64,000 bases of DNA, taken from positions 62,001-126,000 of the forward strand of contig JAKFVT010000026.1 in the NCBI GenBank assembly GCA_021732005.1, written 5' to 3'. Made by a program: the position numbers and the translations under genes. Below the pieces are notes generated by a model. The model was not told the DNA's origin. It saw only the letters and a list, made by a program, of their open reading frames with translations, and ran no database searches. Positions 31,807-43,455 of this stretch are shown here, one piece after another (position 1 is the stretch's first letter; every line of letters begins with the position of its first letter). The stretch comes from Mycobacterium sp. (GTDB lineage: Bacteria; Actinomycetota; Actinomycetes; Mycobacteriales; Mycobacteriaceae).

Positions 31807-32844
31807 TCAGTTGCGGGACTGCAGCGCCTGCTGGCCGAAGGTACCGGTCTGCAACGAGCCGTCCGGCAGCACCAGATCGCCGCTGTCGAGCCGGGACCGC
31901 AGGTAAGCGAATGTCTGCGCGGTCTGCGCGAACAGGTGCTCGCCGGCCACCAACGCCGGTCGCGACTGTTCGTCGGCGGTGAGGAATTGTGGCAGTGGCT
32001 GGACCACGGTGTGGTAGTCGACGTTGAAGAACAGCGGGAATGAATAGCGCTCCTGCTTTACCTTGCGTACCCGATGCGACGTGGCGACGAAGGCGCCGTT
32101 GGTCCACAGTTCGAGCATGTCGCCGACGTTGACCACGAACGTTCCGGGAATCGGTGGGACGTCGATCCATTCCCCGGCGCCGTTGAGGACCTCGAGCCCG
32201 GGCGCGGTGGGCTTGAGCAGTGTGAAGCACTCGTAGTCGGTGTGTGCGCCGATGCCCTGGGCGTCTTCGGCGTCCGGGTTGTGCGGATAGTAGATCAGCC
32301 GCAACTGGCTCGGCGTCTTGGTGGCGTGCCGGGTGAAGGTGTCCGGATCCTCTCCGAGCGCGACGGCGAAGGCGCCCAACAGATCCTGCCCGACGCCGAG
32401 CACGGCCTGGTAGTACTCGGTGACCGTTTCGGCGAAGCCGGGAAGGTCGGGCCACACGTTGGGTCCGAGCATCGGGTTGCCTGCCAGATGGTCGGGGTCG
32501 TCGGCGGGCAGGTCCAGTGCGGTGTCGAATGCCTCCTTGAAATCGGGTTTGTCGCTGTAGAACCCTTCCTCACCCACCGGCACATAACCGCGATGACAGT
32601 TCGACAGCCCGATGTAGGACTTCATCTTCTCCGCAACCGGCAGGGCGAAGAACTGTTTGGTGGCGTCGAGTAGCCGATCGAAAAGGTCATCGCTGACCGG
32701 CGTCCCCGAGATGTAGAAGAAGCCGACGTCGCGTGCCGCTGCGCCGAGTTCGGCTGCGACACCCTCACGGTCGGCGGGGTCGGCGGACCGCAACCCACTG
32801 ATGTCGATGACGGGTACCGATTGGAATGATGTCGCCCCACTCAC
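31807..32844 (-). CDS. Isopenicillin-N-synthase-like 2-oxoglutarate/Fe(II) dioxygenase
   Basis: Non-heme iron oxygenase of 345 residues. Iron ligands are H201, D203 (GAHTDYE) and H257 (ATSHRV); R266 and S268 (RYS) would bind the 2-oxoglutarate carboxylate. The N-terminal VPVIDISGL block is typical of the plant-type DIOX_N fold. GTG 32844 overlaps the previous gene by four bases. As the last gene of the allantoin-type operon it may oxidise a purine-derived or N-heterocyclic substrate; the actual substrate is unknown. Confidence 0.88.
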   Translation of the reverse strand: MSGATSFQSVPVIDISGLRSADPADREGVAAELGAAARDVGFFYISGTPVSDDLFDRLLDATKQFFALPVAEKMKSYIGLSNCHRGYVPVGEEGFYSDKPDFKEAFDTALDLPADDPDHLAGNPMLGPNVWPDLPGFAETVTEYYQAVLGVGQDLLGAFAVALGEDPDTFTRHATKTPSQLRLIYYPHNPDAEDAQGIGAHTDYECFTLLKPTAPGLEVLNGAGEWIDVPPIPGTFVVNVGDMLELWTNGAFVATSHRVRKVKQERYSFPLFFNVDYHTVVQPLPQFLTADEQSRPALVAGEHLFAQTAQTFAYLRSRLDSGDLVLPDGSLQTGTFGQQALQSRN

Positions 32845-33425
32845 AGTGTCACTCCTCCTTCGCTTTCTTTGATGTCCCAGGCGATGTCGTCGTCGACTCG
32901 TAGCTGTCCTGAATCGATCCGAGCCCGCAGCAGCGTCCCGACTCGGTGCGGATGGCTGGATTCATCGATCCGCCACTCGGTTCCGCTGACAGTCCCGAGA
33001 GAGATCTCCTGCGGGTGGGCCCAGCCGAACCGGTCCCCCACCCGCACCAGCACACCCGTCGTGTCCGGCGCCGACAGCACGAGTCCCCAGCAGGGTTGTG
33101 CCGTGCCGGCTTCGCGCTGCCAGTGCTCGGTGTAGTCGGCGTGCACGCCGATCTCCACAAGGGTGTCACCGCACCAGCTCATCCGCCCCGCGTCGGGAAG
33201 CTCAGGCGGCTGCAGGTCGACCAGGCGGGTCCATTCGAAGACGTCGTCGTGCTGGCCGAGCCGGCCGGCGAAACCCTCCCCTGGCCCGCGCAGATCAATG
33301 AACATGGAGATGCCTTGGAGCCATTGCACATTCGTTCCGGTGTCGCGGGATCCGTCGGCCTCGACCAGCAGCGTCCGTCGCCACAGCCCGGTGCAGTCGG
33401 CGATCACCGGGGTCTCGGGGGTCAC
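32841..33425 (-). CDS. Unknown protein in the allantoin-type operon
   Basis: Not recognised. It has 194 residues if it starts at GTG 33425 (GTGA overlap with the allantoicase stop) or 199 from ATG 33440. Soluble, Trp-rich (for example NVQWLQG, FEWTRL, TEWRID), with alternating polar/hydrophobic stretches that suggest a beta barrel, perhaps lipocalin-like. No signal peptide, no cysteine motif; DTLVEIGVHADYTEHW is a striking conserved-looking core. Four-base overlaps on both sides place it firmly inside the operon, so a role in the same pathway, as binding protein, isomerase or lyase, is likely. Confidence 0.75.
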   Translation of the reverse strand: MTPETPVIADCTGLWRRTLLVEADGSRDTGTNVQWLQGISMFIDLRGPGEGFAGRLGQHDDVFEWTRLVDLQPPELPDAGRMSWCGDTLVEIGVHADYTEHWQREAGTAQPCWGLVLSAPDTTGVLVRVGDRFGWAHPQEISLGTVSGTEWRIDESSHPHRVGTLLRARIDSGQLRVDDDIAWDIKESEGGVTL

Positions 33426-41458: not shown

Positions 41459-43455
41459 CAGCGCGCCTTCCGTTCGATACAGGCGACCTGGTGCGGGCTA
41501 CCGGGAGTGCCTTCCAGGCGGACGTCGAGTTCGAGGTCACTGCAGGTGTCGATCGCGATCGGGCACCGGGGGTGGAAGGCACAGCCGGTCGGCGGCGACA
41601 TGGGGCTGGCGGGTTCGCCGGCCAGCACCCGGCAGTCGCGACCCAGGTCGGGGATCGCGTCGACCAGCGCCTGGGTGTACGGATGTGTCGGGCGTCCGAT
41701 CACGTCTTCGGCGGGGCCGATCTCGACGATGCGACCCAGGTACATGACCGCGATCCGGTCGGCCACCACCCGTGCGACCGACAGGTCGTGGGTCACGAAC
41801 ACCACCGACATGTCCAAGGTGCGGCGCAGCCCGCCGATCAGGTTGAGCACCGAGGCCGCCAGCGACACGTCCAGCGCACTCGTGGGCTCGTCGCAGAGCA
41901 GCACCTGCGGCGGGATCACGGTGGCCCGCGCCAGCGATACCCGTTGCCGCTGACCGCCGGACAACTGCGCGGCCCGCGATTTGACCACATCCTGCGGAAG
42001 GCCCACCCGCTCCAGCACTTCCGCGACAGCATCCTTGCGCTCGCTCCGCGACATCGAGGTGCCGCGCAGGCGTTCACCGATCAGCTCACCGACGGACAAC
42101 CACGGTGTCAGCGAGGCACCGGCGTCTTGGAAGACCATCTGCGGACGGGTATCCCCGGCCAGTTCGACCTCGCCGGTGGTCGGCTTCTCCAGCCCGGCGA
42201 TGATGCGCAGCAGCGTCGACTTTCCGGAGCCGCTCTCCCCCACCAGGGCCACCGATTCGCCATGCGCGACGGTCAGCGACACTCCGCGCAGCGCCTGCAG
42301 TTTGCCTCCCGATGCCCCGGAGCGATCCAGCCGGCGGCGGCGCACGGTGAACGTCTTGGTGACGGCGCGGGCGTCGACGGCGGGCGGTTGATCAGCCGCA
42401 ATCTCGACTCGATCGGCGAATGCTTCGGCCTCGGCGGCGATGATCCCGGCCAGTTCGGTGCGCATCTGCGCCGGCTCGATGATGCAGGCACTCACCCGGT
42501 TATCGGCGCAGGACACCGGATCCGGTGGTGTGGCAGAGCATTCGGTGCGGGCCAGCGCACACCGCGGCACGAACGCGCAACCGGACAGTGGCGCGGTCGG
42601 GCTGGGCACCTGGCCGGCCATCGCCGCCAGCGGACGGTCCCGCGCCGTGTCCAGGGTCAGTCGAGATTGCAGCAGGCCATGGGTGTAAGGATGCGCGGGG
42701 GTGGCGAGAACGTCGGCGGTCGGGCCGATTTCGGCGATCCGCCCGGCATAGAGCACGGCGATGCGGTCGGCGATCTGCGCGGCGACGCCCAGGTCGTGGG
42801 TGATCAGCACGATGCTGCAGCCGATCTCGGCACGCAGCCGCTGCAGCAGCGCCAGCACCTGTGCCTGCACCGTGACGTCGAGCGCGGTGGTCGGTTCGTC
42901 GGCGATGATCAGCTCGGGATCACCGGCCACCGCGATCGCGATCATCACCCGCTGGCGCAATCCGCCGGACAGTTCGTGCGGATAGGCCCGCATCCGTCGT
43001 TCAGGATCTGGAATACCAACGGCGGTGAGCAGTTTCAGTGCTTCTGCGCTGCTGCCTGCTACTTCTTCGACCTGTTTGCCGATCCGCATCGTCGGGTTCA
43101 GCGACGTCATCGGGTCCTGGAACACCGCACCGAGGTCGAGTCGCCGAACCTTGCGCAGCTGCTTGGCGGCGCCGGTGAGCATGTCGGTGTCGCACACCTG
43201 GACACGGCCGCTGGTCTTGGCGGCGCCGAGCAGGCCGAGCATGCTGAAGCCCAGAACGCTTTTACCAGAGCCGGATTCGCCCACCAGGCCCACGATCTCG
43301 CCGGGCGCGATCTGGAGCGACACCCCGCGCAGCGCGTGCACGTCCTTGCCGTTGCGGCGGAACGTGACACACAGATCATCCACCGCCGCGACCACGTCGC
43401 CCGGCGTCGTCGCCGGTGCGTCAGGTCGCAGCGCGACACTTGCGGCGCTCGCCAT
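41458..43455 (-). CDS. Fused double ATPase of the peptide-type ABC importer (DppD-DppF)
   Basis: Protein of 665 residues with two complete ATPase domains. Domain 1: Walker A GESGSGKS (59-66), signature LSGGLRQR (162-169), Walker B IIADEP. Domain 2: Walker A GESGSGKST (406-414), signature LSGGQRQR (498-505), Walker B LLCDEP. Each is followed by the oligopeptide-transporter C-terminal extension with its cysteines (SGCAFVPRCALARTEC and TGCAFHPRCPIAIDTC), a likely iron-sulfur site. First gene of the eleven-gene operon; ATG 43455. Confidence 0.94.
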   Translation of the reverse strand: MASAASVALRPDAPATTPGDVVAAVDDLCVTFRRNGKDVHALRGVSLQIAPGEIVGLVGESGSGKSVLGFSMLGLLGAAKTSGRVQVCDTDMLTGAAKQLRKVRRLDLGAVFQDPMTSLNPTMRIGKQVEEVAGSSAEALKLLTAVGIPDPERRMRAYPHELSGGLRQRVMIAIAVAGDPELIIADEPTTALDVTVQAQVLALLQRLRAEIGCSIVLITHDLGVAAQIADRIAVLYAGRIAEIGPTADVLATPAHPYTHGLLQSRLTLDTARDRPLAAMAGQVPSPTAPLSGCAFVPRCALARTECSATPPDPVSCADNRVSACIIEPAQMRTELAGIIAAEAEAFADRVEIAADQPPAVDARAVTKTFTVRRRRLDRSGASGGKLQALRGVSLTVAHGESVALVGESGSGKSTLLRIIAGLEKPTTGEVELAGDTRPQMVFQDAGASLTPWLSVGELIGERLRGTSMSRSERKDAVAEVLERVGLPQDVVKSRAAQLSGGQRQRVSLARATVIPPQVLLCDEPTSALDVSLAASVLNLIGGLRRTLDMSVVFVTHDLSVARVVADRIAVMYLGRIVEIGPAEDVIGRPTHPYTQALVDAIPDLGRDCRVLAGEPASPMSPPTGCAFHPRCPIAIDTCSDLELDVRLEGTPGSPHQVACIERKAR

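Follow-up and report, generated by a model that had tools for sequence, protein, structure and literature searches.

A Mycobacterium importer operon with a putative MgdH/MgdL-like gene pair and an optional allantoin cassette: a candidate guanidino/ureido scavenging system

According to the available part of Sinn et al. 2025 (PMC12508155), the 2-oxoglutarate (2OG) dioxygenase MgdH and a hypothetical beta-barrel protein, MgdL, demethylate methylguanidine via a hemiaminal, residues D49 and R51 of MgdL are essential, and the genes belong to a guanidine-carboxylase operon. Guanidine carboxylases are marked by an Asp at a position where urea carboxylases carry Asn (accessible text of a review, PMC12186494). 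An eleven-gene operon (the block) was compared with these systems; it lies at positions 31807 to 43455 of a 64,000-nucleotide stretch of Mycobacterium sp. DNA (GCA_021732005.1, contig JAKFVT010000026.1, positions 62,001 to 126,000), the whole of which is called the window. The block shares with MgdH/MgdL a 2OG/Fe(II) dioxygenase (here ox) beside a small, predicted beta-barrel protein (here unk) with the Asp-x-Arg motif that is essential in MgdL, and sister mycobacterial loci share the association with CgdA/B, guanidine carboxylase and allophanate hydrolase. It differs in its extras (Dpp-type importer, metallo-beta-lactamase-fold hydrolase, cysteine hydrolase and the AllB-AllR-Alc trio, Alc being allantoicase), in a TetR regulator with paired palindromes in place of riboswitches, and in containing no guanidine carboxylase genes, which lie inside the MgdH/MgdL operon but adjacent to the block, or in the same operon, in relatives (types B and C below). 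Of the guanidine carboxylase pathway (CgdA/B, Gca, AtzF), UAAP1/UAAP2, an Asp-form carboxylase and allophanate hydrolase adjoin the block in these relatives, whereas the window genome has a carboxyltransferase-only protein and no allophanate hydrolase was found there. All three enzymes of bacterial allantoin catabolism were recognised in the block, the racemase being of the Gly/Glu AllR type (PDB 5lfd).

The block is best read, with a probability of about 0.55, as a TetR-controlled guanidino/ureido nitrogen-scavenging operon that carries an optional allantoin cassette. Guanidine chemistry is a better clue to its core than ureide chemistry, because the unk-ox pair persists without allantoin genes and adjoins guanidine-degradation genes in relatives. 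An earlier, sequence-only reading of this DNA had described an importer joined to allantoin-like catabolism; the importer is indeed joined to a complete AllB-AllR-Alc set, but this cassette is optional and the core is unk/ox with guanidine neighbours. That reading had also called the gene set no known pathway, and no description of the eleven-gene set was found in the literature covered (open-access papers, abstracts and listings).

The eleven-gene block and its core pair

The features of the block and its promoter region, in order of transcription from the divergent tetR, are as follows.

43675..44340, plus strand: TetR-family regulator, divergent (ATG start preferred); a tetR homologue flanks the importer in relatives
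43609..43626, no strand: operator-like palindrome, site 1, TTCTGTCATGTGACAGAA, an exact 18-base palindrome
43516..43529, no strand: operator-like palindrome, site 2, CTGTCGATTGACAG, the second core, 95 bp from site 1
41458..43455, minus strand: fused DppD-DppF ATPase (dppDF), two ABC_tran and two oligo_HPY stretches
40589..41458, minus strand: DppC-like permease; NCBIfam Opp2C/NikC-type matches under their cut-offs
39573..40577, minus strand: DppB-like permease; BPD_transp_1
38931..39572, minus strand: isochorismatase-fold cysteine hydrolase; PF00857, 131.5 bits
37354..38934, minus strand: family 5 solute-binding protein; SBP_bac_5, 209.5 bits
36515..37348, minus strand: metallo-beta-lactamase-fold hydrolase, AiiA/AttM-like ('lactonase-like'); Lactamase_B, with N-acyl-homoserine lactone (AHL) lactonase models under cut-off
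35172..36518, minus strand: allantoinase AllB; Amidohydro_1, and TIGR03178 at 474.7 bits (cut-off 357.85)
34429..35175, minus strand: AllR-type allantoin racemase; Asp_Glu_race, PDB 5lfd at E 1.3e-66
33422..34432, minus strand: allantoicase paralogue; PF03561 at 222 bits, TIGR02961 at 269.8 bits (cut-off 277.9)
32841..33425, minus strand: unk, predicted hemiaminal lyase, MgdL-like, presumed HRI1 (YLR301w) fold; no Pfam match
31807..32844, minus strand: ox, 2OG/Fe(II) dioxygenase, MgdH-like partner; DIOX_N and 2OG-FeII_Oxy

Eleven open reading frames in one orientation run from 43455 to 31807, and the six 4-base overlaps noted earlier (32841, 33422, 34429, 35172, 36515 and 38931) were all present. 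At the remaining junctions the genes overlap by 1 base (41458), abut with a 0-base gap (39572/39573) or lie 11 bases apart (40577/40589); if the lactonase-like gene has its preferred GTG start at 37348, 5 bases separate it from the binding-protein gene (37354). DppB was scanned with Pfam only and DppC with NCBIfam only. With the binding protein, the permeases and the fused two-ABC_tran ATPase all found, the claim of a complete family 5 importer held, as did the family assignments of the dioxygenase, the cysteine hydrolase and the lactonase-like enzyme. The proposed check on conservation gave the same order of all eleven genes in every one of the 8 named mycobacterial records (found with unk as query), the nearest being Mycobacterium rhodesiae and Mycobacterium sp. 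ENV421.

In relatives, genes were identified by tblastn with the window proteins and by profile searches, our own gene caller being crude. unk was present in 73 of 248 Mycobacterium genomes, and 72 of these loci, window included, were typed by gene content (G024 was left out). Type A combined importer and allantoin genes (33 loci, and 2 with guanidine genes in view); type B had the importer block without allantoin genes (11 loci, and 11 with guanidine genes in view); type C consisted of urea carboxylase (UC), allophanate hydrolase (AH), ox and SSF genes without importer block (10 loci); type D had an APC permease and LacI (4 loci), and one locus held a partial block. The importer block, with or without allantoin genes, was found at 58 of the 72.

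ox adjoined unk in 71/71 mycobacterial loci outside the window (loci chosen by unk, those cut by contig ends included). The iron ligands H201-x-D203 and H257 and the 2OG-site residues R266-x-S268 of ox did not vary across the 72 loci aligned (types A-D and the window among them), and D44-x-R46 of unk was conserved in 58/58 aligned rows (18/18 across locus types). The structural model of unk is a beta-barrel with the fold of yeast YLR301w (PDB 3rby), which we take to be HRI1, at only 12% identity; below 3rby, the VIA-align and Foldseek lists contained mostly common barrels, and a PDB sequence search with unk returned a chance-level match only. The 'unknown protein' of the sequence-only reading thus still lacks a Pfam match but is now assigned the YLR301w fold and an MgdL-like pairing with ox. 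The pair most likely carries out hydroxylation and hemiaminal cleavage on a C-N bond that adjoins a guanidino or ureido group.

The unk family has hundreds of homologues; unk was detected in 5/396 genomes across the phylum (profile A1), in 9/394 across the class (profile A2) and, among relatives, in 14/61 genomes and 1/22 genera. Against the unk profile, an Acinetobacter protein whose neighbours are a related ox, an SMR transporter and an allophanate hydrolase scored 41.9 bits (E 3.6e-14, 12-protein set), and tblastn of unk (from the window and from L116) against plasmids gave no match. At L175 (5667-11605, plus strand) one run encodes a binding protein, an 8-oxoguanine-deaminase-like protein (517.6 bits, cut-off 532), a cytosine-deaminase-like protein, an unk relative and ox (62%); such deaminase-like neighbours would fit cyclic guanidines in general. 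None of the queries matched L177 (G822) at 1e-8.

The allantoin cassette

AllB passed the equivalog cut-off of TIGR03178 and is the single allantoinase above family cut-off in the window genome, so that the earlier recognition of allantoinase stood. For the allantoicase it stood in part: the PF03561 cut-off was well exceeded but that of TIGR02961 was narrowly missed. The racemase had been set down as a one-Cys relative; it does belong to the Asp_Glu_race family but is not odd, its best solved match being the allantoin racemase 5lfd with the same Gly/Glu arrangement. In its motif G79-F-G-E82-H-G, Gly replaces the first Cys and Glu follows three residues on, with the second Cys retained; E82, C181 and C184 were invariant (up to 32 rows compared). 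Degradation by a hydantoinase-racemase-carbamoylase amino-acid route was dropped as a candidate because allantoin enzymes are the better match for both the racemase and the amidohydrolase. Plain uricolysis was dropped because no PF01014 uricase was found in the whole genome (the search covered neither FAD-type urate oxidases nor xanthine dehydrogenase); this is in line with the claimed absence of urate oxidase and supports an external substrate as likely.

Allantoicase-family proteins occurred in 89 of 248 Mycobacterium genomes and formed two groups, the block's group scoring more weakly (E about 1e-38 to 1e-47 vs 1e-49 to 1e-56 for most others). The window genome gave two allantoicase-domain matches, of which, among the matches listed, one is in the block, whose protein has two such repeats. 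Canonical-looking mycobacterial clusters (L144, L145) combine an allantoicase with a permease, a GntR regulator, a Cys-type racemase and a presumably PuuE-like protein, named by eye, whereas in the block AllB and AllR go with an allantoicase paralogue and an ABC importer. Because the canonical clusters differ and many block-carrying genomes hold both allantoicase groups, the AllB-AllR-allantoicase set of the block is a second, distinct one.

On an ox tree of 57 importer-type loci (L103 was excluded, having no binding-protein gene in view), the trio required at least 8 changes, and starred branches alone forced 4 or more of these. Since ox follows unk in every locus while the trio changes so often, the cassette is optional and the pair is not. 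Such turnover would also be expected if independent nitrogen modules had moved together with no single substrate; we consider this improbable, because the trio label was clustered on the tree (0/500 shuffles as low, shuffled mean 17.8) and because gene order is strict and translation coupled.

A plain allantoin (ureide) utilisation operon would be another account of window-type loci, unk having been recruited as the missing ureidoglycolate lyase that splits the hemiaminal ureidoglycolate into glyoxylate and urea by MgdL-like Asp/Arg chemistry. The complete trio overlaps unk by 4 bases, and no ureidoglycolate lyase was recognised in the block by Pfam and NCBIfam scans (the genome was not searched for PF04115). 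Moreover, the 14 of 73 genomes in which no allophanate hydrolase was found at E 1e-60 are all of the trio type (13 typed, plus G024). This account is nevertheless unlikely: unk and ox occur together without the trio in 22/57 loci compared, and in the ox tree type A and type B loci are intermixed, so that unk did not arise for the trio; in addition, many block-carrying genomes have the second, canonical-looking allantoicase elsewhere.

Guanidine genes and paired palindromes

The guanidine genes in view at the type A and type B loci counted above (2 and 11, respectively) were UC and/or AH. UAAP1/UAAP2, the carboxyguanidine deiminase subunits CgdA/CgdB, directly preceded UC in 11 of 14 extended loci, the 3 without them in view being of type D, and were confirmed by named models in L112 and L143. 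At the position which we take to be Asn1330 of the Kluyveromyces lactis urea carboxylase, UC carried Asp in 29/29 loci with the motif (some stretches overlap). In L029 (9045-11546, plus strand) an unk-like (HRI1/MgdL-like) C-terminal domain is fused behind the Amidase and AH_C domains of an allophanate hydrolase, and in 10 genomes unk matches fell inside open frames of 819-1086 codons. DUF1989 was present in 67/73 unk-positive vs 49/175 unk-negative genomes (relatedness not corrected). On a Paraburkholderia plasmid, an ox 57% identical to that of the window adjoins UAAP1/UAAP2, UC and AH; Guanidine-I riboswitches precede UAAP1 and a transcript encoding a solute-binding protein and an AHL-lactonase-family enzyme (31% identity to the lactonase-like enzyme of the window), and a Guanidine-II riboswitch precedes UC. 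A Guanidine-I/II riboswitch was present in L138. Ox relatives were listed in 302 plasmid records.

With up to 3 mismatches allowed, site 1 was the sole match across the window, and it has none (0.10 matches expected from shuffles, at least one in 9 of 100). A divergent tetR homologue flanked the importer wherever the fetched stretch reached that far, and the core site stood between tetR and dppDF in 49/49 loci with both genes in view (two or more sites in 43); 8 of the 57 non-window A/B loci were excluded from this count, tetR or dppDF being out of view or more than 900 bp away. The rest of these loci (887,812 bases) held 12 core matches. Spacing within the core pair was 94-96 bp in 39/49; the remaining 10 loci had a pair or a triple of sites at 106 bp. 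A site also preceded UAAP1 (cgdA) in 23/23 stretches tested (22 places), as pairs 95 bp apart in 20/23 (L112, L143 and L148 differ), and in the window genome the TetR encoded next to cgdA/cgdB (L143) shares 55% identity with that of the block. From these predicted operators we infer that importer block and guanidine operons share a common type of regulator. A variant palindrome of the TTCTATC-N4-GATAGAA type lies just before unk in the APC/LacI-type loci L114 (4839), L121 (13452) and L134 (4340).

The lactonase-like enzyme and the cysteine hydrolase are constant companions of the Dpp-type importer. In the former H110-x-H112-x-D114-H115, H183, D208 and H255 were invariant (up to 58 rows aligned), and in the latter, which is only distantly related to biuret and N-carbamoylsarcosine amidohydrolases, D17, K112 and C145 (up to 55 rows). 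An extra copy of the binding-protein and lactonase-like pair lies behind ox in L022, L087, L088 and L091. Family 5 binding proteins usually bind peptides, opines or metal chelates, and the block encodes an AHL-lactonase-like enzyme; both would suit an operon that scavenges a peptide-, opine-like or N-acyl compound, with ox/unk performing a side-chain dealkylation unrelated to guanidine and the guanidine genes being near through a shared nitrogen-limitation cluster. In line with this, urea amidolyase, allophanate hydrolase and allantoicase of Mycobacterium smegmatis are all up under nitrogen limitation (available part of PMC4617892). We hold such an operon to be unlikely, as the paired palindrome common to both operon kinds, the unk-allophanate hydrolase fusion and the Asp-form carboxylase are more specific than a shared nitrogen response.

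A proposed route and the points against it

For a guanidino/ureido scavenging operon the following route is proposed. Its starting points, namely genes, conservation, pairing, neighbours, motif and catalytic residues, are observed, whereas all substrates, the flow direction and the ligand of TetR are inferred. The divergent TetR would switch the operon through the palindrome pair of the kind found before guanidine-degradation operons, and the importer would take up a guanidino or ureido compound. In a two-step N-dealkylation, ox would hydroxylate the carbon bound to the guanidino nitrogen, after which unk (HRI1 fold) would split the resulting hemiaminal with Asp44/Arg46, releasing guanidine (or urea). 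Judged from their families, the lactonase-like enzyme may open a cyclic or ester bond and the cysteine hydrolase may remove a carbamoyl or amide group, each before or after dealkylation. In window-type species AllB-AllR-Alc would convert a ureide of the hydantoin type to urea and ureidoglycolate. Degradation of methylglyoxal-hydroimidazolone by an ACC-oxidase-like enzyme was dropped after the literature gave nothing useful, and creatinine was considered as substrate and dropped, with evidence neither for nor against.

Several observations weigh against this reading. The likeness of ox/unk to MgdH/MgdL of V. boliviensis is an analogy confined to arrangement, fold class and an invariant Asp-x-Arg. 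The substrate range of MgdL is reported as narrow in the part of PMC12508155 available, and for methylguanidine a family 5 importer together with lactonase and cysteine hydrolase would hardly be needed. Partners of unk vary outside the genus: in another actinobacterium (L038, 8286-10146, minus strand) an HRI1/MgdL-like protein directly adjoins a Rieske oxygenase, and L176 has an unk relative near guanidine genes and no ox at 1e-8. Among the 7 plasmid contexts viewed (5 from 25 listed ox-relative records, 2 via a lyase-like query; L155 without gene annotation), only 2 contained guanidine-pathway genes. No guanidine riboswitch was found in the window or in 6 mycobacterial loci scanned. A stricter 18-base motif was present near tetR in only 44/50 loci, and in the window's own genome the cgdA promoter (L143) has weak sites at 74 bp spacing, core matches in L143 being no more than chance (5 found vs 7.28 expected).

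The same genome limits the downstream pathway. UAAP1, UAAP2 and a carboxyltransferase-only homologue of guanidine carboxylase, without the biotin carboxylase half (L143, 9851-11839, plus strand), are encoded together on another contig, outside the block (genome G000, contig C4). At E 1e-150 a carboxylase match was found in 63/73 unk-positive genomes (28 full length, 35 carboxyltransferase-only), and the 14 genomes lacking an allophanate hydrolase at E 1e-60 are the window's and 13 of its kind. With the carboxyltransferase part only and no allophanate hydrolase, the known guanidine route cannot finish in the window genome; in this lineage guanidine would either exit the cell or be used by another route, or the pair there would serve a ureide.

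A wider proposal is that of a mycobacterial guanidine regulon without riboswitches, in which a TetR sensing guanidine or alkylguanidine and acting on paired operators would run both the carboxylase operon and the Dpp-type uptake/N-dealkylation operon, the latter being joined in the window's lineage to AllB-AllR-Alc for the use of a mixed guanidino-ureide, for example 5-guanidinohydantoin, which forms from oxidised guanine and is allantoin's guanidino analogue; in this full form it is a long shot. If the scavenging reading is true, an unannotated protein family would gain a testable function as hemiaminal lyases, the methylguanidine chemistry of 2025 would extend to a large bacterial genus found in soil and water, guanidine scavenging would be joined to allantoin breakdown, and a protein-based guanidine switch would operate where riboswitches are the known solution. 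The binding protein and TetR of the block are direct handles on natural sources of free or substituted guanidine.

Downstream of the block, an adenylate-cyclase-like membrane protein (29590-31743, minus strand) and an MscS-like channel (28178-29593, minus strand), both named by eye, are kept beside it in several relatives. Elsewhere in the window, tandem glycine riboswitch aptamers (Rfam RF00504, 58.3 and 36.3 bits) lie at 1666-1885 on the minus strand.

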